Below the pieces are notes generated by a model, which did no database searches, was not told the DNA's origin, and saw only the letters and a list, made by a program, of their open reading frames with translations. DNA of 37,559 bases from a virus, in the IMG/VR virus record IMGVR_UViG_3300005253_003520, positions 1 through 37,559 of that record. One strand, written 5' to 3'. The first letter of the stretch is position 1; each line of letters opens with the position of its first letter. Made by a program: the position numbers and the translations under genes. Of the stretch, positions 7,364 through 36,730 are shown in pieces.

Positions 7364-7377
7364 TCGTTAAGCGCGAG

Positions 7378-8052
7378 TTAACGCGCGTGCCAAAGATAGA
7401 GGCTTCCGTCTTTTTCGACGTGATTAAACTCGCCGCTTAGCCGCAGATCGCGCCCATAGGCTTCAAAGTCGAAATACCTGGCGAGTTCGTCGGGAACGTC
7501 GGACAACGTACCGCAGTCGGCAATGAAGCTTTCCGCATATGCGGTCCAACTTTCGTGCTCCCCGGCATAATCGTCTTGAAGCGCGCTTTCCGCTTCGGAC
7601 TCGTCGGTTATGTCCGCGATCTTTCCAACGTCTTCTAAGTATTCCAGCGCAACGGCTATCGGGATTCCAACAGTCTCGGCAGCGTTGACGATCATGACTC
7701 GCTTCGCGACCTCATCAAGGCCGGCATATTCGCCAAGATCGCCGAGTCCTTCGTGATCGTGGATCGCCCATTCTTCGGCCGACCTGAAAGCCGCGCCGTC
7801 CTTCGTCATGTAGTCGACGCACTCAGGGCATTCGTATTCCACGGGTCCGCCTCCATAGGGCAGCGTGACAGTCGCGGTTTTGTCGCAGTCCTCGCACTTG
7901 AACTTTTGCCTAAAGACATTCGGAAAGCGGGACGCGGCGAGCATTTCGTTGATCTCGCGATACATGGCCGATTGATCTTCCGAAGCATCGATCCATCGGC
8001 CATGAAGGACACCGTTATTGTAGCTGGCGAGACATGCGGCATAGATACGCAT
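7378..8052 (-). CDS. ardA: ArdA antirestriction protein with zinc-ribbon insert
   Basis: 224 aa. N-terminal IYAACLASYNNGVLHGRWID and the later blocks EEWAIHDHEG, LGEYAGLDEV, and YAESFIADCG…LPDELARYFDFEAYGRDL-like region are the ArdA signature. ArdA is a DNA-mimicking protein that inhibits type I restriction enzymes. Typical ArdA is about 165-185 aa. Here residues about 45-90 hold an insert with CEDC (53-56) and CPEC (75-78), a four-Cys zinc ribbon, placed between the first strand-helix unit and the WAIHD block. AAGGA lies about 12 bases upstream of the ATG. It would protect incoming phage A DNA. No operator copy is obvious in front of it. Confidence 0.85.
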   Translation of the reverse strand: MRIYAACLASYNNGVLHGRWIDASEDQSAMYREINEMLAASRFPNVFRQKFKCEDCDKTATVTLPYGGGPVEYECPECVDYMTKDGAAFRSAEEWAIHDHEGLGDLGEYAGLDEVAKRVMIVNAAETVGIPIAVALEYLEDVGKIADITDESEAESALQDDYAGEHESWTAYAESFIADCGTLSDVPDELARYFDFEAYGRDLRLSGEFNHVEKDGSLYLWHAR

Positions 8053-8089
8053 AAGGGCGTTTCCTTGTCATAGGTCGGAAAGGTTGACG

Positions 8090-8290
8090 TTAAGCCGTGG
8101 CACCTAGCACAAGTGCCTTATGGCGCGCGTTAAAAAGCCATTCGGGAACTGGAAAGCCTTCCCGTTTCCGTTGGTCGATTTGCCGTTGATATCCGTTGTA
8201 AAGGTCGACGAGCGGATTCGTCATTCTCTGCCCGGTATAAGTGACGTACCCGTAAGGCATAGTGTCGTCTAAGTTCATATCGGCGCGCAT
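8090..8290 (-). CDS. Small hypothetical protein
   Basis: 66 aa from MRADMNLDDTMPYGYVTYTG. AAGGAAACGGCA before the ATG matches the ribosome region of the ardA gene (AAGGAAACGCCC), and the upstream GTCAACC(C/T)TTCCGA block is also shared. The longer frame back to 8398 would run into the tRNA and is rejected. Contains GYQRQIDQRKREGFPVPEWL. Function unknown; last gene of replicon A before the tRNA. Confidence 0.55.
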   Translation of the reverse strand: MRADMNLDDTMPYGYVTYTGQRMTNPLVDLYNGYQRQIDQRKREGFPVPEWLFNARHKALVLGATA

Positions 8291-8351
8291 TGCCGTTTCC
8301 TTGTCATGGTTCGGAAGGGTTGACGGGGCGAATAGAGTCGTCCCGTCGCTA

Positions 8352-8380
8352 TTGACGCATGGCGCTAAATCGGAGAGATA
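8352..8380 (+). promoter_or_regulatory. Promoter of the tRNA-Thr gene
   Basis: TTGACG (8352-8357), 17-bp spacer, GAGATA (8375-8380). The transcript would start about 5-10 bases before the first tRNA base at 8391. Confidence 0.55.
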
Positions 8381-8390
8381 ACGCCGCGTG

Positions 8391-8467
<77 letters not shown>

Positions 8468-8821
8468 CAAATCCCTGCACAGCAAGGCTTCCGAGCCCCA
8501 AGCACTCCCGTTTCCCCCACGGTTCAAACCTGAACAGGTGCGGAACGTCCCCCAAAAGCTGGGGGAAAACTGGGGGAATCCGTTCGCGGACTGTTCTCCC
8601 GTCGATCCGCCGCCGGACCCCGGAAACGCGAAAGCCGCTCCGATTGGTCCTCGGAACGGCTCGCAGAATGAAAAGCGCTGTGGCGGTGCTTTCAACTCAA
8701 AATACTACAGCACCGCGCGCGCTCTGACAATTCCCAGCCCGGAAAAACCCGACCGAATGGCGCACGTAGTGCGTTGCGGCGAACGGCTCTTTGCGGTCGG
8801 TTACCACGTCGGAGGTGCCCT
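8468..8821. promoter_or_regulatory. Left end of element B: integrase arm-type sites
   Basis: Non-coding. TCCCCCA at 8513-8519 and 8548-8554 and TGGGGGA at 8560-8566 and 8571-8577 match the two TGGGGGA copies beside attR (25153-25170), so they are likely integrase arm-binding sites. A 22-codon frame at 8757-8825 ends in an ATGA overlap with the next gene but has no ribosome site. The rest shows nothing clear. Confidence 0.55.
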
Positions 8822-9415
8822 ATGACCGGCACCGTCGAAGTTATGGCGGCACGCGCCAAGCTCTATCGTAGGGCTATGCCGTCGCGGGCGTCGATCGATT
8901 ACGTACGCGACAACGGCCTCGATAGTTGGACAATTGCCGCGCACGCGGGTTGCTTCACCGTCCTGAAGATCAACGTCCTGCCGGGGAACCGGTGGGACTT
9001 CGTCGAGGACGACAGCGAAGTGGCTGTCCCGGTGGCGATCGTCGAAGCCTTCGGCCGCGACGGCGAGACCGTCCTGGACCTCGTAGCGTGGCCGCTGGAC
9101 CATCCCTACCGGGTGCTGACGATGTTCGGCCGGGCCGACATGCTCGGCCTCGTCAACGTCTATTCGGCCGCGTCCTACACCTTCGGAACGCCGCTCCAGA
9201 TGCACCGGACGCCGCTCGGATGGTGGCGTGCAGGATGCCGTGGCGCGGTCGTTCTCGATCCCGTCTCGGCCGCCCGACATCTCCTCGACGCGCCGGGCCG
9301 GATCGCTGGGCAAGACCGGGAGCACTCGCAGGAACTCGCCGATCTCGTCGGCGGGCTCTTCGATCGCTCGCGCTTTGTCGCTTCTGCAGCTTCTCATCTC
9401 AAGGTGGCGGCATGA
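8822..9415 (+). CDS. Hypothetical protein preceding VirE helicase
   Basis: 197 aa with GGAGG 6 bases before the ATG at 8822. Distinct blocks: WTIAAHAGCFTVLKIN, VLDLVAWPLDHPYRVLTMFG, then FGTPLQMHRTPLGWWRAGCRG and VVLDPVSAARHLLDAPG. It overlaps the helicase gene by 4 bp (ATGA). Its place before a VirE-type helicase, where satellites and prophages often have a primase or Toprim-like partner, suggests a replication role. I see no DxD or Toprim Glu/Asp motif that proves it, so function stays open. Confidence 0.6.
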   Translation: MTGTVEVMAARAKLYRRAMPSRASIDYVRDNGLDSWTIAAHAGCFTVLKINVLPGNRWDFVEDDSEVAVPVAIVEAFGRDGETVLDLVAWPLDHPYRVLTMFGRADMLGLVNVYSAASYTFGTPLQMHRTPLGWWRAGCRGAVVLDPVSAARHLLDAPGRIAGQDREHSQELADLVGGLFDRSRFVASAASHLKVAA

Positions 9416-10662
9416 GCGCCCTGGCCGAAGACTATCGTCCGATCGACAGCTTCCCGCGCGATCGCGAGGACGCCAGCGACCCGGATTGGACGAGGCGGCT
9501 GATTTGCACAGCGAACGGATTCCCGAAGCCGCTTCTGGCAAACGTCCTGACGGCGCTGCGATCGGCGCCCGAATGGGCGGGTGTCCTTGCTCACGACGAG
9601 TTCGGTATGTCGACCATGATGCGCGTCGTGGCACCGTGGGACCGCGCGCACGGTTTCAAACCTCGTCCCTGGACTTCGCGAGACGATCTCTTGACGACCG
9701 AATGGATGCAGCATCACGGCATCCCGATATCCGTGGAGATCGTTCAACAGGCTATTGAGGCTGCGGCGGCCGAGAATGCCTTCCATTCCGTCCGCGATTA
9801 TCTGGACGGGCTCCGGTGGGATCGAACATCCCGCGTCGAAACATGGCTGACGCGTTATCTCGGAGTAGAGACGACAGACTACACCCGCGCAGTGGGAAAG
9901 AAGTTTCTCATCTCGGCTGTCGCTAGGGCTTTCCGGCCTGGGATCAAAGTCGACACGATGCTGATCTTCGAGGGAGGGCAGGGCGCCGGCAAGTCACGCG
10001 CCGTGGCGACCCTCGGCGGAGCATTCTATTCCGACGAAATCGGCGATCTCGGCTCGAAGGACGCCGCCATGCTGGCGGGCGCCGCTTGGATAATCGAAAT
10101 GTCCGAACTCGACGCGATGTCGAAATCGGAGGCAACGCGGACGAAAGCGTTTCTCTCGCGAACGGCGGACATGTACCGGCCACCCTACGGGAAGCGGGTT
10201 ATCAACGCTCCTCGTCATTGCGTCTTCGTCGGCACGACCAACGGCGACGGCTACCTGAAGGACGAAACCGGCGGTCGGCGCTTCTGGCCCGTGACGGTCG
10301 GCAAGATCGACATCGCCGCATTGGAGGCCGATCGCGATCAGCTTTGGGCTGAAGCCTTGTGCATCTATCGCGCCGGGCATTCCTGGTGGCTGGACAAGCA
10401 AGAGCTGATCGACGCCGCGCAAGCCGAACAGTCGGCTCGGTATGCCGGCGATCCCTGGGATGACGACGTTCGCCAGTTCATCGCCACCCGCACGGATGTT
10501 TCCGCCCGCGAGGTCATGGCCGAATGCCTCTTCATCGATATCGCGAAGAGATCTCGGCAGGACGAGATGCGGGTTTCGAAGATCCTCAAGACGCTGGGCT
10601 TCGAGCGATATCAGCGGCGAGAGAACGGAAAGCAGACGTGGAGGTATCGTCGCCGAGAATAG
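9412..10662 (+). CDS. VirE-family (virulence-associated E) helicase/ATPase
   Basis: 416 aa. Residues about 120-345 form the VirE P-loop domain: Walker A GGQGAGKS near 188-195, Walker B-like WIIEMSELD near 226-234, and sensor region VFVGTTNGDGYLKDETGGRRF near 271-292, all hallmarks of this SF3-like replicative ATPase of phages and satellites. The C-terminus (about 355-415) looks like a winged helix (SAREVMAECLFIDIAKRSRQ…RVSKILKTLGF) that could bind the adjacent iterons. It lies directly upstream of the iteron array at 10672 and should unwind element B's origin. Translationally coupled to the gene before it. Confidence 0.88.
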   Translation: MSALAEDYRPIDSFPRDREDASDPDWTRRLICTANGFPKPLLANVLTALRSAPEWAGVLAHDEFGMSTMMRVVAPWDRAHGFKPRPWTSRDDLLTTEWMQHHGIPISVEIVQQAIEAAAAENAFHSVRDYLDGLRWDRTSRVETWLTRYLGVETTDYTRAVGKKFLISAVARAFRPGIKVDTMLIFEGGQGAGKSRAVATLGGAFYSDEIGDLGSKDAAMLAGAAWIIEMSELDAMSKSEATRTKAFLSRTADMYRPPYGKRVINAPRHCVFVGTTNGDGYLKDETGGRRFWPVTVGKIDIAALEADRDQLWAEALCIYRAGHSWWLDKQELIDAAQAEQSARYAGDPWDDDVRQFIATRTDVSAREVMAECLFIDIAKRSRQDEMRVSKILKTLGFERYQRRENGKQTWRYRRRE

Positions 10663-10671
10663 CTTTCCGCC

Positions 10672-10903
10672 TGTCACCAACCACTATCGCCTGTCACCGA
10701 CCGGAGGTTGGTGACAACTCGACGTGTCACCGACCTAGGTTGGTGACACTTGCGTTTTGCAACTAATAAAACGGCAGCAATTTCAACGCTGTCACCATGT
10801 CACCAACCTAACCAACCTATCTGAGAATTAGTAGAGAATGGCTCAAAAGGGGGTGTTTACGCTCTGGGGAAAGTTTGGTGACGAGGTTGGTGACATGGTG
10901 ACA
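10672..10903. repeat. Iteron array, likely replication origin of element B
   Basis: At least seven copies of TGTCACC(A/G)ACC or its reverse complement: 10672-10682, 10692-10702, 10706-10716 (inverted), 10725-10735, 10738-10748 (inverted), 10798-10808, 10885-10895 (inverted). Further partial copies lie at 10790, 10873 and 10896. Two pairs form near-perfect palindromes. An A/T-richer stretch (10750-10790) lies in the middle, as expected for an unwinding element. It follows the helicase gene by 9 bp. Confidence 0.8.
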
Positions 10904-10976
10904 GCCGAAGGCGTCGCTTCACTTGCCACAACTTGCTTAATCCCCATGCGTCACGGTCGGCAGCATAATGCCGGCT

Positions 10977-12182
10977 ATGTTCGGATTTCTGCGCAAGAGC
11001 GTTCCTGTCGAGAAGAAGGAGGGCATCAGCTCGCCTTCCGATTGGCTTCTCAGCCTGTTCGGCGCGATGCCAGCCGCCGCCGGCGTATCCGTCACGCCTC
11101 AGACCGCCATGCGCTGCACTCCGGTTCGGGCCGCAGTCCAGACCATCGCGGAGTCGATCGGCCAGCTTCCCTTCCATGTTTATCGTCGCGGGCCGGATCG
11201 GTCGAAGGAGCGAGACAGCGAGCATCCGGTCGCCAAGCTTCTGAACGGCGAGGCGAACGAATGGACCGCCTCTTCCGACTTTCAGGAACAACTAACCCGT
11301 GACGCGCTCCTATGGGGCAATGGCTACGGCTTCATCAATCGGATTGAAGGCCGCCCGCAGGAGCTTCTTCGGCTTCAGCCGGACACCGTGTCGGTCGACG
11401 CCGACGAGACCACCGGCGAGCCGCGATACAAGATCACGTCCGGTTTCGACGTCGGTCGCCAGATCGCTCGGCGCGACATTCTCCATATCAAGGCGCCGTC
11501 GCTGAACGGCATCGTCGGAGACAGTCCGGTCGTCCAGGCGAAGGAGGCCATCGCTTCGATTCTGGCGATGGAGGAACACTGCGCTCGCCTCTTCGGCAAT
11601 GGCGCTCGCCCATCCGGCGTGATCGAGATGCCGAACAATCTCTCGGAAGAGGGTCTGAAGCGAATGCGCACCGGATGGGAAGCCGTCCACGGCGGCGCCC
11701 ATAAATCCGGCAAGACGGCGCTCCTCTGGGATGGCGCCAAATTCGTCCCGCTCACCTTCTCTTCGGTCGACGCGCAGTTCTTGGAGCTTCGCCGCTTCGC
11801 TATCGACGAGATCGCCCGCGTCTTTCGCGTGCCGCCGCACATGCTTTTCGAGATGGGCCGCGCGACCTGGGGCAATGCCGAGGAGATGGGCGCCACCTTC
11901 GTCACCTACACGCTGCAACGTTGGTTGCGGGCATGGCAGGGCGAGGTTCGCCTGAAGCTCTTCGCCGAGGACGAGCGCGACACATTCTTCGCCGAGTTCC
12001 TGGTCGACGATCTCCTCAGGGCGGACATCAGCGCTCGCGCTGTCGCCTATTCCTCGCTGATCTCCTCTCGCGTTCTGAATCCGAACGAGGTCCGGGCGAT
12101 GGAAAACCGGCCGCCATACGAAGGCGGCGAGGCCTTCGCCAATCCGAATATCACCACGACTGTTGCGGAGCCCGCGCAATGA
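10977..12182 (+). CDS. Phage portal protein, HK97 family
   Basis: 401 aa from MFGFLRKSVPVEKK, a typical portal N-terminus; an ATG 9 bases earlier is also possible, and neither has a strong ribosome site. Family blocks visible: TPVRAAVQTIAESIGQLPFHVYRR, LLWGNGYGFINR, the LRLQPDTVSV region, ARRDILHIKAPSLNGIVGDS, and near the end ARVFRVPPHMLFEM and RAMENRPPYEGGE. It forms the dodecameric ring at the capsid vertex through which DNA enters. First gene of the head operon of element B, downstream of the origin. It overlaps the protease by 4 bp (ATGA). Confidence 0.92.
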   Translation: MFGFLRKSVPVEKKEGISSPSDWLLSLFGAMPAAAGVSVTPQTAMRCTPVRAAVQTIAESIGQLPFHVYRRGPDRSKERDSEHPVAKLLNGEANEWTASSDFQEQLTRDALLWGNGYGFINRIEGRPQELLRLQPDTVSVDADETTGEPRYKITSGFDVGRQIARRDILHIKAPSLNGIVGDSPVVQAKEAIASILAMEEHCARLFGNGARPSGVIEMPNNLSEEGLKRMRTGWEAVHGGAHKSGKTALLWDGAKFVPLTFSSVDAQFLELRRFAIDEIARVFRVPPHMLFEMGRATWGNAEEMGATFVTYTLQRWLRAWQGEVRLKLFAEDERDTFFAEFLVDDLLRADISARAVAYSSLISSRVLNPNEVRAMENRPPYEGGEAFANPNITTTVAEPAQ

Positions 12183-12712
12183 AGGAAGACAAGCTTCAGC
12201 ACCCGGCTCTGATCGAGGTCAAGGCCAGTCTGTCGGCGGCCGATGACGGCGCCGTCGAAGGGCTTGCCTGGCCGTTCGGCACACCCGACCGCGTCGGAGA
12301 CATGATCGAGAAAGGCGCCTTCTCAGGATCGGCCGTCCCGATCCCCATGCTCTTCGGTCACAACCCGAACGATCCTGTCGGCGTCTGGGAAGCCGTCGAG
12401 GAAACGAGCGAAGGCCTCCGGGTGAAGGGCCGGCTTCTGGTCGCTGAGGTCGGCCGTGCCCGCGAAGTTCAGGCCATGGTGAAGAGCGGCGCCGTGCGCG
12501 GTCTGTCGATCGGCTTCATCACGAAAAAGGCCAGCGCCCGGCGCGGCGGCGGCCGGACCATCACGTCTCTTGAACTTGCCGAAATTTCACTCGTCACCAT
12601 CCCCATGCACCCGAAGGCGGGTCTCAGGGGAACAAAGGCCGGAGCGGACGCCATCGCGCTCGCCGAGGCCATCAACCGGGCCGCCAGCGCCCTCCGTTCC
12701 TCAAGGGGTTAG
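12179..12712 (+). CDS. Prohead (capsid maturation) protease, HK97 family
   Basis: 177 aa. The serine protease pattern of the HK97 prohead family is present: MLFGHNPNDPVG (catalytic His), VKSGAVRGLSIGF (catalytic Ser) and LELAEISLVTIPMHPKA (conserved Glu region). It would cut the delta-like N-terminal part of the capsid protein during assembly. The start is set by the ATGA overlap with the portal gene. It ends 4 bp before the capsid ATG. Confidence 0.92.
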   Translation: MKEDKLQHPALIEVKASLSAADDGAVEGLAWPFGTPDRVGDMIEKGAFSGSAVPIPMLFGHNPNDPVGVWEAVEETSEGLRVKGRLLVAEVGRAREVQAMVKSGAVRGLSIGFITKKASARRGGGRTITSLELAEISLVTIPMHPKAGLRGTKAGADAIALAEAINRAASALRSSRG

Positions 12713-12716
12713 AACC

Positions 12717-13889
12717 ATGGAACAACTGAAGCAGTCCGCGCTGATGCCCGGCGCGATCGAACTTAAGGGCGATGAAGACGGTGACGATCCGACCGCGATC
12801 GTCACGAAGGCTCTCGACGAGCTGAAGGGCTCGGTAGACGAGCGCATAAAGGCGATCGAAGAGAAATCCGGCGACGCCAGCAAGATCACCGACCGCCTGG
12901 ACAAGCTCGAATTCCGCCTCAATCGTCCCGGCACCGGCGGCGACAGGAAGGACGGGCCGAACGTCGAACAGAAGGCTTTCGTCGGCTTCATCCGACGCGG
13001 CGCCGATGGCATCCCGGACGAAGACCGCAAGGCGCTTCGCGTCGCCGATTCCCAGGCCGGCGGCTATCTCGCACCGGAAGCCTTTGAGACTGAAATCCTG
13101 AAGGAACTCGTTGAAATCTCGCCGATTCGATCGGCGGCGACGGTTCGCCAGACCTCTTCGGCATCCGTGGTCCAGCCGAAGCGCACCGGGCGCATTACGG
13201 CGAAGTGGGTCGGCGAGACGGAAGCCCGCCCCGGCACCGAACCCGCCTATGGCCAGATCGAGACGCCGGTCCATGAAATGGCTTGCTGGATCGATGTCAG
13301 CAATCAGCTTCTCGAAGACGCGGCCGTCAATATCGAGGCGGAACTGACCGGCGAGTTTGCCGAGGAGTTCGGGCGTCTTGAGGGCGAAGCCTTCGTTCTC
13401 GGAGACGGCGTCAAGAAGCCGGTTGGCCTGATGGTCGACGCATCGGTTCCCGTCGTGCCGAATGGCAACGCCACAGCCATTCAGGGGGATGCTCTCATCT
13501 CGCTGATGTACGATCTGCCGGCGATGTACCGCAATCGCGGTACTTGGCTGATGACCGGCACCACGATCGCCGCCATCCGCAAGCTGAAGGACGGGCAGGG
13601 CAACTATCTCTGGCAGCCCGCCTATCAGGTCGGCCAGCCGGAAACGCTCCTCGGTCGCCCGGTGGTCGAAGCCGTCGACATGGACGACATCGCGGCGGAC
13701 ACCTTCCCGATCGCCTACGGCGACATTGCCGCGACGTATCGGATCTATGACCGCGTCGGCCTTTCGGTCCTTCGCGATCCCTTCACCCAGGCAACGAACG
13801 GCATCACCCGATTCCACTCTCGCCGTCGCGTCGGCGCGGCCGTGGTCCGAGCGGAAGCCGTCCGCAAGCTGAAGATGGCCGTGAGCTAA
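12717..13889 (+). CDS. Major capsid protein, HK97 fold
   Basis: 390 aa. Residues about 1-70 are charged and helical (IVTKALDELKGSVDERIKAI…KITDRLDKLEFRL), the scaffold-like delta region. From about 115 the HK97 core begins: SQAGGYLAPEAFETEILKEL, IRSAATVRQTSS, AKWVGETEARP, then RNRGTWLMTGTTIAAIRKLK and a C-terminal RRRVGAAVVRAEAVRKLKM. The protease next door implies cleavage near 105-115. AAGGGG lies about 8 bases upstream of ATG 12717. It forms element B's own capsid shell. Confidence 0.94.
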   Translation: MEQLKQSALMPGAIELKGDEDGDDPTAIVTKALDELKGSVDERIKAIEEKSGDASKITDRLDKLEFRLNRPGTGGDRKDGPNVEQKAFVGFIRRGADGIPDEDRKALRVADSQAGGYLAPEAFETEILKELVEISPIRSAATVRQTSSASVVQPKRTGRITAKWVGETEARPGTEPAYGQIETPVHEMACWIDVSNQLLEDAAVNIEAELTGEFAEEFGRLEGEAFVLGDGVKKPVGLMVDASVPVVPNGNATAIQGDALISLMYDLPAMYRNRGTWLMTGTTIAAIRKLKDGQGNYLWQPAYQVGQPETLLGRPVVEAVDMDDIAADTFPIAYGDIAATYRIYDRVGLSVLRDPFTQATNGITRFHSRRRVGAAVVRAEAVRKLKMAVS

Positions 13890-15564: not shown

Positions 15565-15944
15565 TGCGTGGAACGAAGCCCCATCTCGTCGTGAGCAATG
15601 ACGCCATGACCGAAAAGCAGCCGGCGCCGTCCTGGATGTCGAAGGACGCCAAGGCGGAATGGAGGCGCATCATGCCGCTTCTGATCGAGCGCAAGATATT
15701 GACGGACGCCGACATGGGCAGCGTCGAGAACTATTGCGTCACGATCGGCCGAACCCGGCAGATTGAACGCCAGATTCAATTCGCGGGCGATGCGATCGAT
15801 CCCTCGCTTTTCAGAATGCAAGACAAGGCGATGCAGACCGCTCGCCAGCTTGCCGCAGAACTCGGGCTGACGCCGGTTTCCCGGTCCAGGCCAGCCATCA
15901 GAGAAGAGAACGATGACGACGATATCGCCGGCCTGGATATCTGA
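15564..15944 (+). CDS. terS: Terminase small subunit, P27 family
   Basis: 126 aa. MRGTKPHLVVSNDAMTEKQP is the typical P27 N-terminus, followed by PSWMSKDAKAEWRRIMPLLI, LTDADMGSVENYCVTIGRTRQ and AELGLTPVSRSR, all family blocks. It binds the packaging site and hands DNA to the large subunit, so it should decide that element B DNA, not helper DNA, enters the element's capsids. The end overlaps terL by 32 bp. Unusually it stands after the head genes rather than before the portal. Confidence 0.92.
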   Translation: MRGTKPHLVVSNDAMTEKQPAPSWMSKDAKAEWRRIMPLLIERKILTDADMGSVENYCVTIGRTRQIERQIQFAGDAIDPSLFRMQDKAMQTARQLAAELGLTPVSRSRPAIREENDDDDIAGLDI

Positions 15945-17511
15945 CGGATCGGAGATCCCCGACCCGCTCGGCTACGGCCAGCGCGCCGTCGACTTCCTTC
16001 GTATCCTGAAGCACCCGAAAAGCCGCTCGCCGGGCAGGGCATTCGAGCTGCCCGAATGGCAAGAGAGGATCGTCCGGCGCATTTATGGGCCATGCCATCC
16101 GGACGGTCGCCGGATCGTTCGCAGCGTCGTCGCGCTCCTCCCGAGAGGAAACCGCAAGACCTCGCTCGGCGCCACTCTCGCGCTTCTCCATACGATCGGG
16201 CCGGAACGCCTGAACGGCGGGCAGATCATCTGCGCCGCGGCTGATCGAAAGCAGGCGCGCATCGCCTATGAGGAGTCGGTCGGCATCGTCCGGGAAGACA
16301 AGCGCATCGCGAAGGCCATGCGGTTCCTGGACTACAAGAACCGTCTCGCGCATCCGAAGAGCGGCGCCATCCTCGAAGCTATCTCGGCCGATGCCGGCAC
16401 TCAGCACGGGCGAACGCCGACCTTCGCCCTGGTCGACGAGTTGCACGCCTGGAAAAAGCGCGAGCTATGGGACGTGATCCGCACTGGCCTGGTGAAGGTG
16501 CAGGGCTCGCTGATGGTCGTCATCACCACCGCCGGGCGCGGCCAGGAGAACATCGCTCACGATATCGTCGATTATGCTCGCAAGGTTGAACGTGGCGAGA
16601 TCGACGACCCGGCGACCCTGCCCATCCTCTTCGAGGCTTCGAAGGATGCCGACTGGCGCGACGAACAAGTCTGGCACCAGGTCAATCCGGGGCTCGCGCT
16701 CGGCTTCCCGGATATCGAGGGTCTTCGCCAGCTCGCACGCGAGGCTGAGAATCGCCCCGGCGACCGTGAGGCCTTCCGGCAACTTCATCTGAACGTCTGG
16801 CTGGATCACTCGGCCGACCCGTTCGTCGATATGGACGTATACGATCAGGGTGACGATGCGATCGACCTGGAGGCGTTGTGCGGCGAGCCGTGCTGGCTGG
16901 GCGTCGATCTCTCGTCAACGACCGATCTGACGGCCGTCGTGGCCGCGTGGAAGCAAGGCGAAGAGTATATCGTCTGGCCGTGGTTCTTCTGTCCCGGCGA
17001 TAATCTGAGGCGGCGATCCGAGATCGACGGCGTTCCCTATCCGCAATGGGCCGACGAAGGGTTTATCGAACCGACGCACGGCAACGTCGTCGATTATCGC
17101 CGCGTCGAGGCGGTGATCCGCGAACTTTGCGACCGCTTCGATGTCCAGGAAATTGCCTTCGATCCGGCGCTCGCGCGCAACATGCTGAACAACCTCCTCG
17201 ACGATGGGTATCCAGCGGTCGAGTTTCGGCAGGGATGGGTGACGATGGCGCCGGCGGTGAAGGAGCTGGAGCGGGCGATCGTCGGCGGAAACTTCCGACA
17301 CGGCGCGCATCCGGTCCTGCGCTGGAATTTCCAGAACATCGCCGTCGAGACCGACAAGGCGGGCAACCGCTTCTTTCACAAGGGCAAGAGCACCGATCGC
17401 ATAGACGGCGCCGTGGCGGCCGTCATGGCCGTCGCGCGAGCCTCAGCCGGCGATAGCGGCCGGTCGATTTACGAAACCGACAAGTGGTCCGAAGACCTTG
17501 CCTATTTCTGA
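15913..17511 (+). CDS. terL: Terminase large subunit (Terminase_1 family)
   Basis: 532 aa. ATPase: Walker A-like LLPRGNRKTS near 75-84 and Walker B ALVDELHAW near 172-180, followed by a coupling segment VVITTAGRG. C-terminal RNase H-like nuclease: WLGVDLSSTTDLTA near 329 (first Asp), EIAFDPALARNML (second acidic site) and TDRIDGAVAAVMA near 495-507 (third Asp). Length is normal for the family and all key residues are present. It is a different lineage from the GpA terminase of replicon A. Last gene of the packaging block. Confidence 0.94.
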   Translation: MTTISPAWISDGSEIPDPLGYGQRAVDFLRILKHPKSRSPGRAFELPEWQERIVRRIYGPCHPDGRRIVRSVVALLPRGNRKTSLGATLALLHTIGPERLNGGQIICAAADRKQARIAYEESVGIVREDKRIAKAMRFLDYKNRLAHPKSGAILEAISADAGTQHGRTPTFALVDELHAWKKRELWDVIRTGLVKVQGSLMVVITTAGRGQENIAHDIVDYARKVERGEIDDPATLPILFEASKDADWRDEQVWHQVNPGLALGFPDIEGLRQLAREAENRPGDREAFRQLHLNVWLDHSADPFVDMDVYDQGDDAIDLEALCGEPCWLGVDLSSTTDLTAVVAAWKQGEEYIVWPWFFCPGDNLRRRSEIDGVPYPQWADEGFIEPTHGNVVDYRRVEAVIRELCDRFDVQEIAFDPALARNMLNNLLDDGYPAVEFRQGWVTMAPAVKELERAIVGGNFRHGAHPVLRWNFQNIAVETDKAGNRFFHKGKSTDRIDGAVAAVMAVARASAGDSGRSIYETDKWSEDLAYF

Positions 17512-23990: not shown

Positions 23991-24362
23991 GTGACGAGTT
24001 TCCCCTGCTTCAGGATGGCGCGCGATCTGGCCGGGGAAGTTTTCCCGGTGAGCGAGGCCGTGATCCTGGAGCTGGCGAAAAAGCATGGCGTCGGCCGGAA
24101 GATGGGGCGTAGCATCGTTTTTTCGCCCGATGACTGTCACAGGCTTTATGAGGTTTTGCCGTGCCCCTCCGCGTCGTCAGCCGACCAAAATCACCGCTCC
24201 TCTACATCCGGGGGACGATCGCCGGCGTTCGCGTCGAGGAAAGCGCGGGCACTTCTAGCCGCAAGCTCGCCGAAGAATACCGCGCGAAACGCGAGGCCGA
24301 AATCTACAAAGAAGGCCTCTATGGTCGTGGCGTTTCCCGAACCTTCGCGGAGGCAGTCGTGA
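23991..24362 (+). CDS. Small pre-integrase protein, GTG start
   Basis: 123 aa if read to 24362. The first 60 residues (FPVSEAVILELAKKHGVGRK, MGRSIVFSPDDCHRLYEVLP) form an HTH-like unit often found just before integrases in rhizobial prophages. After LPCPSASS the frame runs 200 bp inside the integrase gene and is Ser/Arg-rich, so the C-terminal half may be disordered. GGAG lies 10 bases before the GTG. Its frame-overlap with int implies coupled translation. Likely excisionase or integration helper. Confidence 0.6.
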   Translation: MTSFPCFRMARDLAGEVFPVSEAVILELAKKHGVGRKMGRSIVFSPDDCHRLYEVLPCPSASSADQNHRSSTSGGRSPAFASRKARALLAASSPKNTARNARPKSTKKASMVVAFPEPSRRQS

Positions 24363-25201
24363 GTTATCTGGAGACCCGAGGCTCGGCACCGCGCTTCATG
24401 GGCAAGGTGCTCGACCATTTCGACACGACGCCGCTGGCAAAAATCACGCTCGATGCGATCGACGAAGGCGCCCGGAAAATTTATCCGAAAGCGTCCGCCG
24501 CGACCCGCGATCGTCAATTCTACACGCCGACGATCGCCGTCCTGAAGCACGCCGCGAAACGCGGCTGGTGCGCGCCGATCATCGTTGAGCGGCCGAAGAA
24601 GTCGAAGGGTGCGGTCGTCCGGTGGCTGACGCCGGAGGAGGCCGAGCGACTGATCTCGGCGTGCGCCCCGCACCTTCGACCGATCGTCGTCTTCCTCCTC
24701 TACACGGGCGCCCGGGTCGGCGAGGCGCTGTGGCTCGAATGGCGATCGATCTCCCTCGACCGTGCGCACGTCTCTTTCGACGAGACGAAGTCCGACTATC
24801 CGCGTGGCGGCTGGTTGCACACCCGTCTAGTGGCTGAGCTGGCGAATTTGCCGCACCGCGAGGGCGAAGTATTCCGGCGGCCGGATGGCGAACCCTATCA
24901 GCCGTTGAAGGGTGGCGACGATACATCGGCCGGCACCCGGATAGGCACAGCGTTCAAAAGTGCCTGCAAACGGGCAGGCATCACATCTTTCCGCGTTCAC
25001 GATTGCCGCCACACCTGGGCAACCTGGCACTACCAGCAGAACAGAGATCTGACGGCGCTGATGCGCCTCGGAGGATGGCGTTCGGAGAAAATGGTTCTTC
25101 GCTACGCGCATCAAAACGTCGGCGAGTTCGCCGCGTCCATCGAGCGCCTTCCTGGGGGAATCCTGGGGGAGTGCTCTGAGAACAAGGAAAAATCCGCATG
25201 A
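24161..25201 (+). CDS. int: Tyrosine integrase of element B
   Basis: 346 aa from GTG at 24161 (gaggtttt upstream). N-terminal arm-binding and core-binding regions (about 1-150: SRKLAEEYRAKREAEIYKEG, TFAEAVVSYLETRG). Catalytic domain: Arg near 184 in LLYTGARVGEALWLEW, HDCRH with His280 and Arg283, LGGWRSEKMVLRYAH with Tyr315. Full set of residues, so active. It recombines the tRNA-Thr site: its gene ends 28 bp before attR and its last codons contain two of the putative arm sites. Adjacent to HTH genes of the excision operon. Confidence 0.95.
   Translation: MPLRVVSRPKSPLLYIRGTIAGVRVEESAGTSSRKLAEEYRAKREAEIYKEGLYGRGVSRTFAEAVVSYLETRGSAPRFMGKVLDHFDTTPLAKITLDAIDEGARKIYPKASAATRDRQFYTPTIAVLKHAAKRGWCAPIIVERPKKSKGAVVRWLTPEEAERLISACAPHLRPIVVFLLYTGARVGEALWLEWRSISLDRAHVSFDETKSDYPRGGWLHTRLVAELANLPHREGEVFRRPDGEPYQPLKGGDDTSAGTRIGTAFKSACKRAGITSFRVHDCRHTWATWHYQQNRDLTALMRLGGWRSEKMVLRYAHQNVGEFAASIERLPGGILGECSENKEKSA
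25153..25170 (+). promoter_or_regulatory. Right-hand integrase arm sites
   Basis: Direct repeats TGGGGGA at 25153-25159 and 25164-25170 (11-bp period, inside the end of int). They match left-end copies at 8560 and 8571, also 11 bp apart. Confidence 0.55.
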
Positions 25202-25228: not shown

Positions 25229-25280
25229 CTCCCTTGGTAAGGGAGAGGTCGAGAGTTCGATTCTCTCTGGCAGCACCATC
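25229..25280. repeat. attR (3' half of tRNA-Thr)
   Basis: Partial tRNA copy from the anticodon stem to CCA, 32 bp identical to attL, then differing at 25261 and 25268. The T at 25268 would pair with A8397, so this is the original 3' end of the replicon A tRNA. The stop codon of the next leftward gene overlaps its end (25279-25281). Confidence 0.9.
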
Positions 25281-25754: not shown

Positions 25755-25915
25755 TTCGTGGAATCCCTTGCTGCCATGTCTGCGGCCTTTGCCATGCGCG
25801 CCAACTCTTCGCGGGCGATCCGCTTCCCCTCGTCTGTACCGTCGACGAGAGCGGCGAGGAGCATGGGCAGGACACCTTGCCATGTGAGCCCGAGGCTAAT
25901 GCTTTCCGTTGTCAT
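25751..25915 (-). CDS. Small hypothetical protein
   Basis: 54 aa: MTTESISLGLTWQGVLPMLL… with one hydrophobic stretch (LTWQGVLPMLLAALVDG), then a charged helix (EGKRIAREELARMAKAADMA). AAAGGAACGCGACACG precedes the start. The ribosome site and first five codons are part of a 41-bp sequence that is repeated 138 bp upstream. The stop overlaps the next ATG (ATGA). Confidence 0.55.
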   Translation of the reverse strand: MTTESISLGLTWQGVLPMLLAALVDGTDEGKRIAREELARMAKAADMAARDSTK

Positions 25916-26079
25916 CGTGTCGCGTTCCTTTGTGCTGCGGCGTTGAACTCCGCGCGTACCTCTTTCATGTCGGCGCAAAAATGTTGCCAGAACTGATCGC
26001 CGCTCTTGCCCATGGGTGACGACGATGTATCGTTGATGGCTTTCCGTTGTCATCGTGTCGCGTTCCTTTGTGCTGCGGC
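25901..26079. repeat. 41-bp direct repeat duplicating a gene start
   Basis: Positions 25901-25941 and 26039-26079 are identical over 41 bp. On the leftward strand each copy holds the end …AAAQRNATR stop, the ribosome site AAAGGAA and the start MTTES. Looks like a tandem gene duplication or gene conversion. Confidence 0.85.
25912..26013 (-). CDS. Tiny protein, start uncertain
   Basis: 33 aa: MGKSGDQFWQHFCADMKEVR… ending FNAAAQRNATR, with stop TGA in an ATGA overlap with the gene at 25915. Codon use is good and the open frame extends upstream without an ATG (…KAINDTSSSP), so its true beginning may have been overwritten by the 41-bp repeat. The C-terminal AAAQRNATR equals that of the neighbouring 51-aa protein. 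An alternative frame from 26053 (MTTESHQRY…) would fuse to the 54-aa gene. Confidence 0.4.
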   Translation of the reverse strand: MGKSGDQFWQHFCADMKEVRAEFNAAAQRNATR

Positions 26080-30028: not shown

Positions 30029-30508
30029 ATGTCCAACCTTGAAGCCGAGATCGTCAAGCTGCGCGAGGCGGTCGAAGAGAACACTTCCTTCCTCAAAAGC
30101 ATGACCGCCAAGGCATCGTCTTCGAAGCCGGCTGGCGAGGACAAGGACACGGCCGACAAGGGCAATGCCGACGAGAAGCCGGCGACGCGCGGACGCGGCA
30201 AGGGTACGACGGCCAAGAAGGACAAGGCCCCGACCGTCGCCGAGATGAAGACCATCGGCGAAGCCTTCCTCGACGTGAAGGATGAGGACGAATACGCCGA
30301 GCGCCGCAAGGTCCTCAGCGCCATCGCCGATCACTTCGAAGCCGAGCGTTTCACCGCCATCGACAGCGCCAACCGCCTCGTTGCCCGCGATCTCATCACC
30401 CTTGCGACGGCCGGCGATCTCGACATCGACGACATCGCTGGTGCGATCGAGTCCTTGGGCGATGGTGACTCCGACGCGAAGTCGAGCCGTCGCAACGACG
30501 ACATCTGA
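30029..30508 (+). CDS. Charged hypothetical protein with RNDDI tail
   Basis: 159 aa from MSNLEAEIVKLREAVEENTS, with AGGAG 7 bases upstream. N-terminal short coiled coil (about 2-25), a Lys/Ala/Asp-rich flexible linker (about 27-75: KASSSKPAGEDKDTADKGNA), then a helical domain (about 78-145, EMKTIGEAFLDVKDEDEYAE…). It ends SRRNDDI, a tail seen in three other A proteins. First rightward gene of the recombination operon; perhaps a DNA-binding accessory factor. Unknown. Confidence 0.6.
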   Translation: MSNLEAEIVKLREAVEENTSFLKSMTAKASSSKPAGEDKDTADKGNADEKPATRGRGKGTTAKKDKAPTVAEMKTIGEAFLDVKDEDEYAERRKVLSAIADHFEAERFTAIDSANRLVARDLITLATAGDLDIDDIAGAIESLGDGDSDAKSSRRNDDI

Positions 30509-30515
30509 TCCGAAT

Positions 30516-30680
30516 CGCGGCGGGGCTCCTCCCTCTAGTCACCCCGCCGCGACAACTGAGAGACGGGACCACCCCTCCCCGGCCCCGTCTCTCGCCTCCC
30601 GTGAGCCTTTTGGCGAAGCGGGGCGTCCCTTTCACCCGATTTGTTTTGCCGCAATCCCGGTTGTCGAAACGCCCCGCTTC
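30516..30680. other. Three consecutive long hairpins
   Basis: Stem 1 CGCGGCGGGG (30516-30525) / CCCCGCCGCG (30542-30551), loop 16 nt. Stem 2 GAGAGACGGG (30558-30567) / CCCGTCTCTC (30584-30593), loop 16 nt. Stem 3 GAAGCGGGGCGT (30615-30626) / ACGCCCCGCTTC (30669-30680), loop 42 nt. All perfect, none followed by a T-run. Non-coding region before the DUF2800 gene. Confidence 0.8.
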
Positions 30681-30708
30681 ACCCAAACGCTCATTCTGTA
30701 GGGGTTCA

Positions 30709-31911
30709 ATGTCTGTCCGCAAGATCGCTGATACCGGACATGCTGAGGTCGGCCCGTCCAAGCTCGCCAGGGCGCTTCGTTGCCCCGGCAGCGTGGCGTT
30801 CCTTGCCGACATTGAAGACGACGCCGGCATTCCCGCCGCAGAGGGAACGATCCTTCATAGCTTCTGCGAAGACGCCCTCACGCAAAACATACTCGCCGAA
30901 GACTTCATAGGTGAGTGCCGCGAGCATGACGGCCACCGGTATACGCTCAACGAAGTCGATGCGGAGCTAATGCAAGACGGCCTCGATCGCCTCGACATGA
31001 TCCCCGGAAAACTCTTCGTCGAAAAGCGACTGGACCTCGATCGCTTCATGCCTGGGCAGTACGGGACGATGGACGTGGGGATCATGTCGCTGCGGTCCCG
31101 CGTCGCCCATGTGTGGGATTGGAAGTGGGGATATGTCCCGGTCGATCCTGTCCGTAATGAACAAGCGATGGCCTACGCCCTAGGGTTTTGGGACAACTTC
31201 ATTCGGGGCAACCCCGATTATGAGCATATCGACCAATTCCGCATTCACATCTGTCAGCCGCGCACGGTTCGCGGTGGCGGTGAATGGGATGTCAGTCTTG
31301 AGGACTTGCTGGCCTTTGGCCGGGAGATCAAGCCGAAGGTCGCGATGTGTTTCGAGCCGGATGCCCCGCGCGTCCCCGGCGAGGTTCAATGCAAATATTG
31401 CGACGGGGCGCGAAGCCTCACTTGCCCGGAATATAAGGCGTTCAACCTCCAAGCGCTGATCGACGATTTCGATGAGATGGATGAGCGGTGGGAAATGGGC
31501 CTGGGGCCGCGTCTGCCCGAACTGACGCCCGATCGACGGTCCTTCCTGATCGAGAACCGCCCGATGTTCGAAAAGTTCTTTGACCGGATCGAGAACGAGG
31601 CGCTCGACGACTTCATTAAGGGGCGCCCGGTGCCCCGCTTCAAGGCCGTCGAGGGTCGTCGTCCGCCGCGTAAATGGAACCCGGCCGATGAGGATGCGGT
31701 TCGGAATCGGCTTGAGAAGGCACTAGGCGAGGACGCCTACACTCGAAAGCTACTTTCCCCAACCCAAGCGGAAAAAGAACTTCCGCCAAGGCTCTTCGGA
31801 AATATCGAAGAGTACGTCGCCCCTTCCGAGCGCAAGTCGATCCTCGTCAGCGAGGACGACGCTCGGGAACCCATCCAAATCATCGACGACGAGTTCGACG
31901 ATTTGGATTAA
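30709..31911 (+). CDS. DUF2800-like phage nuclease (RecB/Cas4-type)
   Basis: 400 aa from MSVRKIADTGHAEVGPSKLA, with AGGGG 6 bases upstream. The start PSKLARALRCPGSVAFLADI and AAEGTILHSFCEDAL are DUF2800 hallmarks. GTMDVGIMS (Asp near 124) and VWDWKWG (Asp, Lys near 138-140) are the PD-(D/E)XK active-site residues. A late Cys group CKYCDGARSLTC plus the early Cys suggests a Cas4-like metal or Fe-S site. Probably a 5'-3' exonuclease working with the DUF2815 protein in recombination. The DUF2815 gene starts 25 bp downstream. Confidence 0.82.
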   Translation: MSVRKIADTGHAEVGPSKLARALRCPGSVAFLADIEDDAGIPAAEGTILHSFCEDALTQNILAEDFIGECREHDGHRYTLNEVDAELMQDGLDRLDMIPGKLFVEKRLDLDRFMPGQYGTMDVGIMSLRSRVAHVWDWKWGYVPVDPVRNEQAMAYALGFWDNFIRGNPDYEHIDQFRIHICQPRTVRGGGEWDVSLEDLLAFGREIKPKVAMCFEPDAPRVPGEVQCKYCDGARSLTCPEYKAFNLQALIDDFDEMDERWEMGLGPRLPELTPDRRSFLIENRPMFEKFFDRIENEALDDFIKGRPVPRFKAVEGRRPPRKWNPADEDAVRNRLEKALGEDAYTRKLLSPTQAEKELPPRLFGNIEEYVAPSERKSILVSEDDAREPIQIIDDEFDDLD

Positions 31912-31936
31912 CCGTCAACCAAAAGGTGTCATAACA

Positions 31937-32905
31937 ATGGCTGAAAAAGACCCGACTAAGGTCAAACTCAACGATGTGAGGCTGTCCTTCCCTAACCTCT
32001 TCGCCCCTCGCGGATTCGGCAAGAGCAACCGGGGAAAGCCCGCATATTCGGCGTCATTCTTCGTCCCCAAGGACGGGAAGCGCGGCGAGATGATGTACGA
32101 CGACATCCTCGACGCGATCGACGCTGCAAAGGAAAAGGAATGGGGTTCCGATTCGAAGAAGTGGCCGAAGGTCAAGAAGGTCAACATCGCCGTCAAGGAT
32201 GGCGACAAGCCTGCCGACGAGGACGACGACCCGAAGCCCGAGGAAGAGGGTATGTACGTCGTCGCTGCGCGCAATTACAAGCAGCCCCGCGTCCTCGACC
32301 GCGACAAGACCGAACTTCACGAGTCCGATGGCCTCCCTTACGGCGGCTGCTATGTCGATGGCATCGTGCGTTTTTGGGCGCAGACCTACGAAGGCATTCC
32401 CCGGATCAATTGCTCGTTGGAAGGGGTCAGGTATCGCCGTAAGGGCGAGCCCTTCGGTGCGGCGCCGCTCGATCCCGATGAGTTCGATAATCTCCCCGAG
32501 GAGGAAGAAGAGGACGAAGGGGGTTCCCGGCGTTCCAGCCGTCGCCGTGATGCGGAAGAAGGCGACGACGATCGCGGCTCTCGCCGCAGCCGCCGTGATG
32601 CGGAAGAAGGCGACGACGATCGCGGCTCTCGCCGCAGCCGCCGTGACCGGGACGACGAAGACGAGGATCGCGGCTCCCGCCGCAGCCTGTCTCTTATACA
32701 CATCTCCGAGCCCACGAGACCTCGGGGTTCCCGCCGCAGCCGTCGCGATGAGGACGACGAAGACGAGGATCGGGGTTCCCGCCGCAGCCGTCGCGATGAG
32801 GACGACGATTCCGATGACCGGCCGGCCCGCCGCAGCCGCCGTGACGCGGATGAAGACGAGGATCGCGGCTCCCGCCGCAGCCGCCGCAACAACGACGACA
32901 TCTAG
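31937..32905 (+). CDS. DUF2815 ssDNA-binding protein with repetitive tail; contains adapter sequence
   Basis: 322 aa as written. Residues about 1-185 are a DUF2815 OB-type ssDNA-binding domain (KLNDVRLSFPNLFAPRGFGK, AYSASFFVPKDGKRGEMMYD, GGCYVDGIVRFWAQTYEGIP). DUF2815 is regularly paired with DUF2800 nucleases. From about 190 a low-complexity tail alternates acidic runs with RGSRRSRRD units and ends RRNNDDI. The stretch LSLIHISEPTRP near residue 251-262 is translation of a Nextera adapter (32687-32720), not protein. The repeat count and total length are therefore unreliable. AAAGG lies about 10 bases before the ATG. Confidence 0.8.
   Translation: MAEKDPTKVKLNDVRLSFPNLFAPRGFGKSNRGKPAYSASFFVPKDGKRGEMMYDDILDAIDAAKEKEWGSDSKKWPKVKKVNIAVKDGDKPADEDDDPKPEEEGMYVVAARNYKQPRVLDRDKTELHESDGLPYGGCYVDGIVRFWAQTYEGIPRINCSLEGVRYRRKGEPFGAAPLDPDEFDNLPEEEEEDEGGSRRSSRRRDAEEGDDDRGSRRSRRDAEEGDDDRGSRRSRRDRDDEDEDRGSRRSLSLIHISEPTRPRGSRRSRRDEDDEDEDRGSRRSRRDEDDDSDDRPARRSRRDADEDEDRGSRRSRRNNDDI
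32687..32720 (+). other. Nextera transposase adapter (sequencing artefact)
   Basis: CTGTCTCTTATACACATCT (19-bp Tn5 mosaic end) followed directly by CCGAGCCCACGAGAC, together the exact Nextera read-2 adapter. It is flanked by near-identical copies of the RGSRRS repeat, so reads were joined across it by the assembler. Confidence 0.98.
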
Positions 32906-32946
32906 CGGGAGATGGCCGGGGCGTTCGCGTCCCGGCCGCATCATTT

Positions 32947-34902
32947 ATGCAAAAGCGAACGTTCGTCTTCGACATCGAGATATATTGGAACTACTTTTGC
33001 ATCATCTTCAAGGAGATCGGTGGCAAGAAGGCTGTCTTCTCTTGGGAGATGGACGACAGAGGCGCGATCGATACTAAGAGCCTTCGCAGATTTGTCCTGC
33101 GGCATCGGATCATCGGCTTCTACTCTGCCAACTTCGATATGCCAGTGCTGTTCGGAGCGTTGGCAGGATTCAATTGCGAGCGTCTAAAAGAGATCGCAAA
33201 CGCGATCATCGAAGAAGGATCGAAGCCTTGGGATGTTGAAAAGGCATACGGTTTCAGGATCGATCGAAACGTCGATCATATCGATCTTTTCAATATCCCA
33301 AAGGGTCAATACGGACTCAAGATATACAACGGGCGTCTGCATGGTAAGCGGATGCAGGACTTGCCGTATGAGCCTGATCGCATCCTCACCCAAGACGAAA
33401 TGGATGAGGTATACGACTATTGCTTGAACGATCTCGACGCTACCGAGCTTTTGTTCGAAGAATGCTCGAAACAGATCGCCCTTCGCGAGAAGATGGGCGA
33501 CGAGTACGGGATCGACCTTCGGTCAAAGTCTGACGCGCAAGTCGCCGAGGCGGTGATCAAGAGCGAGGTCGCCTCAGTCCTCGGGTACGAAGTGAAGCGG
33601 CCCGAGATCGCGCCAGGGACAACCTACCGCTACAACGTCCCCGCCTACATCAAGTTCAAGCACCCCGAGCTTCGGGACATTCTCGACATCATTCGCGAAA
33701 CTAAGTTTCGAGTTTCGCCGTCTGGCAATATCAAGATGCCAGACACCCTTGCCGACGCCGAAATCAAGATCGGCAAGGGTGTCTATCGGATGGGGATTGG
33801 CGGGCTTCATAGCTCCGAAAAGTCGACCGTCCATAAGGCTGAGAACGGGTATTTCCTCGTCGATCGGGACGTGACCTCCTACTACCCGGCCATCATCATC
33901 AATCAGAACCTCTTTCCGAAGCAGATGGGGTTCGCCTTCCAAAAGGTCTATCAGCGGATCGTCGACCGGCGTCTGGCCGCGAAGAAAGAGGGCGCCGAAG
34001 CCTACGATGAGATTGACGACCTCAAGGCCAAGCTGGAAAAGACGAACCGCGATCCAGACGCCGGCCCGTCCCTCATTGAAGAGCGGATTGAGGAGCTTAA
34101 AAACTCAGCCTCCATCTTCACGACCGTCGCCGACAGCCTCAAGATCACCATCAACGGGTCCTTCGGCAAGTTCGGCAATCGGTGGTCGGCCCTCTACTCG
34201 CCGCAGCTTCTAATCCAAACGACGATCACCGGGCAATTGTCGTTGCTCTTGCTCATCGAATGGCTTGATGAGGATGGGATCGAGGTCGTGTCGGCGAACA
34301 CTGACGGCATCGTGATCCGCTGCCATGAGGACGACCGCGATCTCTACCTCGACATCATCAAAGAATGGGAAGAGGCGACACAGTTCGTCACCGAAGAGAC
34401 GGGCTATGACGCCCTCCTAAGCCGGGACGTTAATAACTACATTGCGGTTAAGAAAGACGGCAAGGGGTATAAGACGAAGGGTGCGTTTGCAATCCCCGAT
34501 GAGGGCAAGGTCAGCGTCGATAAGAACCCGACGAATGAGATCGCCGTGCAAGCCGCGATCGATCATATCCTTCACGGAACCCCGATATGGGCGACTGTTG
34601 TCGCATCGAACGATATTCGCCGCTTCATCACCGTGCGGACGGTCAAGGGTGGCGCCGTCGATCAGGATGGCGAATATCTCGGCAAGGCGATCCGCTGGTA
34701 TTACTCGACCGATGTTCATGACTCGATCCGCTATAAGAACGCGACGGCCAAGGGCAATCACAATGCCGTCCCGAGGACCGAGGGTGCCCGCGCTTGTATG
34801 GAGCTTCCTGACGAGCTTCCCGACGACATCGACCATTCATGGTACGCCCGCGAGGCCCGCTCGATCCTGACGCAAGTCGGCTATCAGCGGAAGCTCATCT
34901 AA
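32947..34902 (+). CDS. DNA polymerase, family B-like
   Basis: 651 aa. 3'-5' exonuclease motifs: ExoI FDIEIYW (Asp9, Glu11), ExoII YSANFDMPVLFG, ExoIII YDYCLNDLDATELL. Polymerase motifs: A DRDVTSYYPAII near 306-316, B KITINGSFGKFGN near 399-411, C SANTDGIVI near 449 (usual YGDTDS replaced by ANTDG, catalytic Asp kept). It is shorter than cellular family B enzymes, as in many phages. Likely the replicative polymerase of replicon A. Its stop overlaps the start of the VRR-NUC gene by one base. Confidence 0.92.
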   Translation: MQKRTFVFDIEIYWNYFCIIFKEIGGKKAVFSWEMDDRGAIDTKSLRRFVLRHRIIGFYSANFDMPVLFGALAGFNCERLKEIANAIIEEGSKPWDVEKAYGFRIDRNVDHIDLFNIPKGQYGLKIYNGRLHGKRMQDLPYEPDRILTQDEMDEVYDYCLNDLDATELLFEECSKQIALREKMGDEYGIDLRSKSDAQVAEAVIKSEVASVLGYEVKRPEIAPGTTYRYNVPAYIKFKHPELRDILDIIRETKFRVSPSGNIKMPDTLADAEIKIGKGVYRMGIGGLHSSEKSTVHKAENGYFLVDRDVTSYYPAIIINQNLFPKQMGFAFQKVYQRIVDRRLAAKKEGAEAYDEIDDLKAKLEKTNRDPDAGPSLIEERIEELKNSASIFTTVADSLKITINGSFGKFGNRWSALYSPQLLIQTTITGQLSLLLLIEWLDEDGIEVVSANTDGIVIRCHEDDRDLYLDIIKEWEEATQFVTEETGYDALLSRDVNNYIAVKKDGKGYKTKGAFAIPDEGKVSVDKNPTNEIAVQAAIDHILHGTPIWATVVASNDIRRFITVRTVKGGAVDQDGEYLGKAIRWYYSTDVHDSIRYKNATAKGNHNAVPRTEGARACMELPDELPDDIDHSWYAREARSILTQVGYQRKLI

Positions 34903-35213
34903 TGGGGCGGCAAGGAGGCCCCTTAGAGTCATACATCGAACGCCGCGTGGTGAAGTTCGGTGAAAGGCTCGGATACGTCGTCCGCAAGGTCCAGTGGGTG
35001 GCGCGAAAAGGGGCGCCCGATCGGGTCTTCATGGGGTCCGGCTTCACCCTATGGATCGAGTTCAAGCAGTTGGGCGTAAAGCCCGAGCCGCATCAAGCCA
35101 AAGAGCATATGCGGATGCGCTCGGCCGGCCAACTCGTCTTCGTCATCGACAACATAGCGGACGGTGAGGCGCTTCTACGGCGGTACGCGCGAGACCACGC
35201 CGACGTTCTATGA
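34902..35213 (+). CDS. VRR-NUC domain nuclease
   Basis: 103 aa from MGRQGGPLESYIERRVVKFG. The whole protein is a VRR-NUC fold: GAPDRVFMGSGFTLWIEFKQ gives catalytic Asp40, Glu53 and Lys55, and PHQ (Gln65) follows. These stand-alone phage enzymes are Holliday-junction or flap-type nucleases. Overlaps the polymerase by 1 bp and the helicase by 4 bp (ATGA), one coupled replication cluster. Confidence 0.92.
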   Translation: MGRQGGPLESYIERRVVKFGERLGYVVRKVQWVARKGAPDRVFMGSGFTLWIEFKQLGVKPEPHQAKEHMRMRSAGQLVFVIDNIADGEALLRRYARDHADVL

Positions 35214-36730
35214 GCAAGGCCCGTCGCCCCAGGAAGGCGCTGAGACGCTATCAGCGCATATTCAAGAATAAGATCGTCAGGCTCAACAATCTGATCCTGG
35301 CGCTTCCCATGGGCTCGGGAAAGACGGGAACATGCCTTACGGCCATGCTCGACCTTCTCGACGACGGGGAGGTCAAGAAGGTTCTCATCGTCGCGCCTCT
35401 GTTGGTAGCCGTTGGAACATGGCCCGACGAGATCGACGATTGGGAGCACACCGCCGATCTGACATGGACGCTCCTGCGCGCTGACGATGACGATCCCGAC
35501 ATAAAGGCGAAACGCGAGATGTTTTATCGGGACGCTCGCGATCTGTGGGGCTTTCCGCCGAAGGATGCAGCGAAGTTCGCCAATCGGATGCGGAACCGCG
35601 CGAAGGAATGGAAGCTCCGCAAGCTCGCCGAGACAGGGACGGAAGTCCACATCATCAACCGCGAGGCCCTGCCCTGGTTGTGGAAGCACTTCGGGGAGGG
35701 CGAGCGTTGGCCCTATGACATGCTCGTCGTCGATGAGGCGTCCATGTTCAAGAACGCCAAGATTAGGACTCCGCTCAAGGAACTGACGCGATTCGGCGTT
35801 GCCGCCAAGGCGAGGAAGTTCGCAAAGCGCGTTGTCCTTTTGACCGGAACCCCGGCCCCCAAGGGTCTCGAAAATCTCTTTGGACTGTCCTACATCGCGG
35901 ACGGCGGGGATCGCCTGGGCAATTCCAAGCATTTGTTCATGCGTACCTATTTTGACAAGAAGACCGTCAAAATGGGGACTCTCAAAATCCCCAAATACAT
36001 TGAAAAGCCCTGGGCCGAAGCGAAGATAATGGATCGCCTCGGGGACATTATGTTCTCCATGCGGGAAGAGGATTGCGTCGATCTTCCACCAATGATCCCG
36101 ATCCCAATGAAAGTTAGTTTACCGCCGCGTATCCTCGATCAATACAAGCGATTTGAGCGAACCCTATACAGCGAAGAATACGACGTTGAGGCCGTCAACA
36201 AGGGCGTGCTTCAAAACAAGCTCCTCCAATTCGCCAACGGGAGCATGTATAATGAGGACCGGGAAGAGGTCTGGATTCACGACGAGAAGCTTGAGGCACT
36301 TGAGCAAATCGTCGAGGACGCCAACGGGATGCCCGTCCTCTGCGCGTACACCTTCGCGTTTGATATTCGTCGCATTCGAAAGCTGTTCCCCAAAGCCGTC
36401 GTCTTCGGCAGGGGCAACGTCGTCGAACAGAAACGCGCCTGGAATAGGGGCGAGATCGACTTTATGGCGGCTCACCCGGCGTCGATCGGGCACGGGCAAA
36501 ACATTCAGTACGGCGGTCACATTTCGGTTTGGTATGGGCTGACCCCCGATCTGGAATTGTATCAGCAATTCAACAAGCGGCTTCATCGGAGCGGCCAGAC
36601 GCACACCGTTTTCAATCACCATCTGATCGCCACGGGGACCTATGACGAAAAGATGCTACCGCTCTTGACGCGGCGCGATGCGACGCAAGATCGGATCATC
36701 GAAGCCGTCCGCGTCAATCTGGCAGCGTGA
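35210..36730 (+). CDS. SNF2-like DNA helicase/translocase
   Basis: 506 aa. Motif I LPMGSGKTG (Lys38), motif II VVDEAS near 172-177, motif III LTGTP near 210-214, late motifs MAAHPASIGHGQNIQ and QFNKRLHRSGQ near 450-461. These are the superfamily 2, SNF2-type set found in many phages next to a VRR-NUC nuclease and polymerase. It probably remodels forks or recombination intermediates. Last gene of the replication cluster; about 60 bp follow before the repressor promoter. Confidence 0.9.
   Translation: MSKARRPRKALRRYQRIFKNKIVRLNNLILALPMGSGKTGTCLTAMLDLLDDGEVKKVLIVAPLLVAVGTWPDEIDDWEHTADLTWTLLRADDDDPDIKAKREMFYRDARDLWGFPPKDAAKFANRMRNRAKEWKLRKLAETGTEVHIINREALPWLWKHFGEGERWPYDMLVVDEASMFKNAKIRTPLKELTRFGVAAKARKFAKRVVLLTGTPAPKGLENLFGLSYIADGGDRLGNSKHLFMRTYFDKKTVKMGTLKIPKYIEKPWAEAKIMDRLGDIMFSMREEDCVDLPPMIPIPMKVSLPPRILDQYKRFERTLYSEEYDVEAVNKGVLQNKLLQFANGSMYNEDREEVWIHDEKLEALEQIVEDANGMPVLCAYTFAFDIRRIRKLFPKAVVFGRGNVVEQKRAWNRGEIDFMAAHPASIGHGQNIQYGGHISVWYGLTPDLELYQQFNKRLHRSGQTHTVFNHHLIATGTYDEKMLPLLTRRDATQDRIIEAVRVNLAA

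Follow-up and report, generated by a model that had tools for sequence, protein, structure and literature searches.

Read-through into the Nextera transposon adapter is known from public contigs, and the 34-mer concerned, CTGTCTCTTATACACATCTCCGAGCCCACGAGAC, is given letter for letter in a published list of trimming adapters (PMC6460022); in all, the string appears in 49 papers. IMG/VR contigs carry it in at least 120 stretches; among the matches listed, 121 of 126 (three of the 126 being pieces of the DNA analysed here) are no more than 60 bases away from a sequence end, and these end-located copies are mostly followed by a standard 8-base index and ATCTCGTATGCCGTC. When 175 more bases were required downstream of the adapter, six IMG/VR stretches with the i7-side adapter were retained, together with three that have the i5 arm, and in these internal cases non-adapter DNA resumes at differing points within the index or P7 or, in L062 and L142, directly after the adapter. 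A phage collection holds the 34-mer in 41 records, many times at record ends; index sequence follows in seven of the eight internal cases read there, the eighth (L135) being an imperfect match. Internal Nextera adapters are also present in phage genomes deposited as ‘complete’ (L129–L134: MK327937, MK327945, MK327946, MK373781, MH973725 and MZ092003), where index, P7 and a poly-A or poly-G tail accompany them and where some lie inside annotated genes.

The window, by which we mean the whole 37,559-nucleotide stretch of viral DNA analysed here, carries the same 34-mer exactly, on the plus strand at positions 32687–32720. Whereas most other remnants end the contig, this copy is internal and has genomic sequence after it without index or P7, and its internal position is its only unusual point. 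The first 19 bases (32687–32705) are the synthetic Tn5 mosaic end of the Nextera kit, CTGTCTCTTATACACATCT, present in the window as one copy with 0 mismatches; the following bases (32706–32720, plus strand) are the remainder of the i7-side transposon adapter, CCGAGCCCACGAGAC, behind which index and P7 stand in most other carriers. No mosaic end appeared in 100 dinucleotide shuffles of the window, even at 3 mismatches, and the chance expectation for the 34-mer in the window is ~2e-16 from base composition. Neither an i7 index nor ATCTCGTATGCCG follows position 32720; the genome is back after one extra C (32721, plus strand), which is absent from a second assembly of the locus and may represent the first base of the index, or else an error. 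Index and ATCTCGTATGCCG are the usual companion of this adapter and not a defining part of it, L062 and L142 likewise being without them. The first-pass annotation had reported a verbatim Nextera adapter at 32687–32720, in frame inside a gene, and its identity and placement are borne out; the extent needs one correction, in that the non-genomic stretch comprises the 34-mer and the extra C, i.e. 35 bp at 32687–32721.

The interrupted gene (31937–32905, plus strand) encodes an ordinary member of the Enc34-type, Gp2.5-like single-stranded DNA-binding proteins (PF10991, formerly DUF2815, a label that the family still carries in several phage records), with an Enc34_ssDNA-bd match at E 8e-34 and 117 bits against a gathering cut-off of 26, and with an additional assignment to PHROG 112. 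Its distinguishing feature is a long tail (32543–32887, plus strand) built from a natural 48-bp tandem array of 16-amino-acid units such as RGSRRSRRDEDDEDED, in which RGSRRSRR is mixed with runs of D and E; the array is broken by the adapter in the window and intact in the second assembly (L144). The relatives L124 and L125 (3550–3786 in each) also possess a related tail of mixed charge, although a less regular one. In the window, the adapter is translated in frame as SLSLIHISEPTRP, giving the context ...RGSRRSLSLIHISEPTRPRGSRRS... within a 322-residue open reading frame. A literature search for the artefact peptide LIHISEPT gave no match.

The second assembly was found by searching genome contigs with the N-terminal 191 residues of the protein, which returned one locus, 100% identical to the query, on contig DRFF01000106.1 (C106) of the metagenome-assembled genome (MAG) HyVt-316, named Aurantimonas coralicida. 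A 6,579-bp alignment of the window to this contig shows differences solely within 32687–32721. Over the full length, window positions 1–13237 correspond to the end of a further MAG contig, C139, and 13193–37559 to the start of C106, and all 37,559 bases are identical between the window and the two contigs except at 32687–32721. The end of C139 and the start of C106 overlap by 45 bp (13193–13237) inside the open reading frame of the major head protein (12570–13889), which is unbroken. At the adapter, the MAG has 29 bp, CGTCGCGACAAGGACGACGAAGACGAGGA, where the window has 35 bp; this shorter version reads RRDKDDEDED, one of the regular array units, and yields a protein of 320 residues. The net gain of 6 bp explains why the reading frame is kept, although 34 is not divisible by three. 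RGSRRS anchors occur in equal count and order in both assemblies, with the spacing differing (54 versus 48) only at the adapter.

HyVt-316 provides its own view of the library. The mosaic end occurs in it in 26 copies, and in 26 of 26 cases its 19 bases coincide exactly with the start or the end of a contig, which fits an untrimmed Nextera library; such reads were used for HyVt-316 too, and its locus was nevertheless resolved without the adapter. The HyVt MAGs were assembled from public reads with MEGAHIT (PMC6946796), and a de Bruijn assembler given untrimmed Nextera reads would be expected to fork just past the mosaic end, where the adapter arms differ. Since the contigs stop at the mosaic end, the library index is not visible in them. 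The full identity of the window and the MAG suggests a shared sample or even a shared set of reads. Short reads probably underlie both assemblies, and errors such as a collapsed array may therefore be common to the two.

Taken together, we assign a probability of about 0.98 to the reading that the 34-mer is library adapter and not phage DNA; its most likely route is read-through followed by a false join back to genuine sequence. On this account, a Tn5-cut fragment would have ended just after ...CCGCCGCAGC, the read would have continued into the i7-side adapter, and the adapter would have been left untrimmed, after which the assembly would have gone from the adapter tail back into genuine sequence at TCGGGGTTCCCG..., 29 bp further on. 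The identity of the adapter, its absence from the second assembly and the exact 29-bp replacement are shown directly, whereas read-through as the source and the assembler or a gap closer as the maker of the join are inferred; the join was possibly aided by the repeats of the array, and also by the ACGAG of the adapter, which resembles a genomic ACGAG at the same place, the two lying almost in register in the true sequence. One feature sits awkwardly with this sequence of events: it is unusual for the genome to resume directly past the adapter without a visible index, as it also does in L062 and L142.

The best-surviving rival concerns how the join arose. An adapter-ended strand could have misprimed, or switched template, onto another repeat copy during library amplification, leaving a physical chimera that the assembler reproduced faithfully. 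The join falls one base past the full 34-nt transposon oligonucleotide, which is what such an event might leave, and the near-register of the two ACGAG motifs would serve it equally. L062 (IMGVR_UViG_2767802081_000001, 4953–4986) also lends it some weight: there too an internal 34-mer lies in a phage gene, that for the scaffolding protein of a Streptomyces-phage-like contig, with the genome directly after it, and the adapter joins two points of that one gene in the same orientation, ~80 codons being absent relative to the scaffold genes of related phages as judged by eye. However, a lone chimeric read would need to prevail against normal coverage, and in other internal cases the join falls now in the adapter, now in the index or P7, without a favoured switching point. 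We therefore regard a chimera as rather unlikely, if still a serious candidate for the origin of the join.

Comparison with L062 also bears on the surrounding array. Whereas the window keeps its frame and has 29 bp replaced, L062 is frame-shifted and has lost its ~80 codons, showing that a similar join can accompany the loss of a longer stretch. No comparable tandem array stands beside the adapter in L062, which makes it doubtful that a repeat is required for such joins. The earlier proposal that untrimmed reads had been assembled across a repeat thus holds for the Nextera artefact and less well for the repeat. Loss of repeat units hidden by the adapter was considered and rejected on the equal unit number in the second assembly, with the proviso that both assemblies may be short-read.

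Biological origins fare far worse than either route to the join. A real insertion, with the phage or its host carrying a Tn5-derived or engineered mosaic end, has nothing in its favour beyond the transposon-end character of the sequence. The 15 bases after the mosaic end are kit sequence, the second assembly lacks the 34-mer altogether, and 29 bp were replaced with no 9-bp target site duplication; the window has a single end, and no transposase was seen among the genes scanned. A search of the window for the wild Tn5 outside end matched solely the mosaic end itself, at 3 mismatches, and the inside end gave no match in the window. Such an insertion is accordingly extremely improbable, and we give slightly less credence still to the phage population truly having the 34 bases in its DNA, for instance as an insert from an engineered construct. 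Least credible of all is strain variation, in which a different repeat unit would resemble the adapter by chance: the kept frame and the position within a variable tandem array would suit it, but the 34-mer is identical to the kit oligonucleotide and the second assembly differs nowhere else in 37.5 kb.

The window contains further features of note. Two different large terminase genes lie within its 37.6 kb, at 857–2170 and 15913–17511 (PHROG 15 and PHROG 9), together with genes for a small terminase (237–860), a portal (10968–12182) and an integrase (24161–25201); possibly, two prophages lie side by side. A 52-bp sequence occurs twice (8416–8467 and 25229–25280, 96% identity), with related short matches on other MAG contigs. 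Two 41-bp stretches (25901–25941 and 26039–26079) also align to C106 out of order, a sign that local repeats may lie near the integrase.

The damage is limited to 35 bases: about ten residues are false, and the gene is 6 bp (2 amino acids) too long. The first-pass annotation had held gene length, the number of RGSRRS units and possibly contig order here to be untrustworthy. Length is indeed off, at 322 versus 320 residues, by no more than those 6 bp; the unit number is the same in the second assembly, both assemblies again being probably short-read, and the doubt about contig order finds no support in the MAG, which has the same order. Distant relatives keep the gene order as well: DUF2800 exonuclease, single-stranded DNA-binding protein, DNA polymerase and nuclease follow one another in the viral contig L124, with protein identities to the window of 42, 62, 50 and 44%, respectively. 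At the DNA level, a search of the phage collection with positions 30500–35300 found no near relative, the best matches covering 10% of it, at 68% identity and within the polymerase gene.

The 34-mer is thus an ordinary sequencing artefact, with no biological feature or meaning. That the tail in this record carries LSLIHISEPTRP in place of RRDKDDEDED matters only as data hygiene, insofar as homology searches with LSLIHISEPTRP would connect unrelated proteins; the neighbouring sequence and the gene order are usable, as is the single-stranded DNA-binding protein outside those residues. Phage single-stranded DNA-binding proteins usually have simple acidic tails, and the mixed-charge repeat tail of this one may deserve attention.
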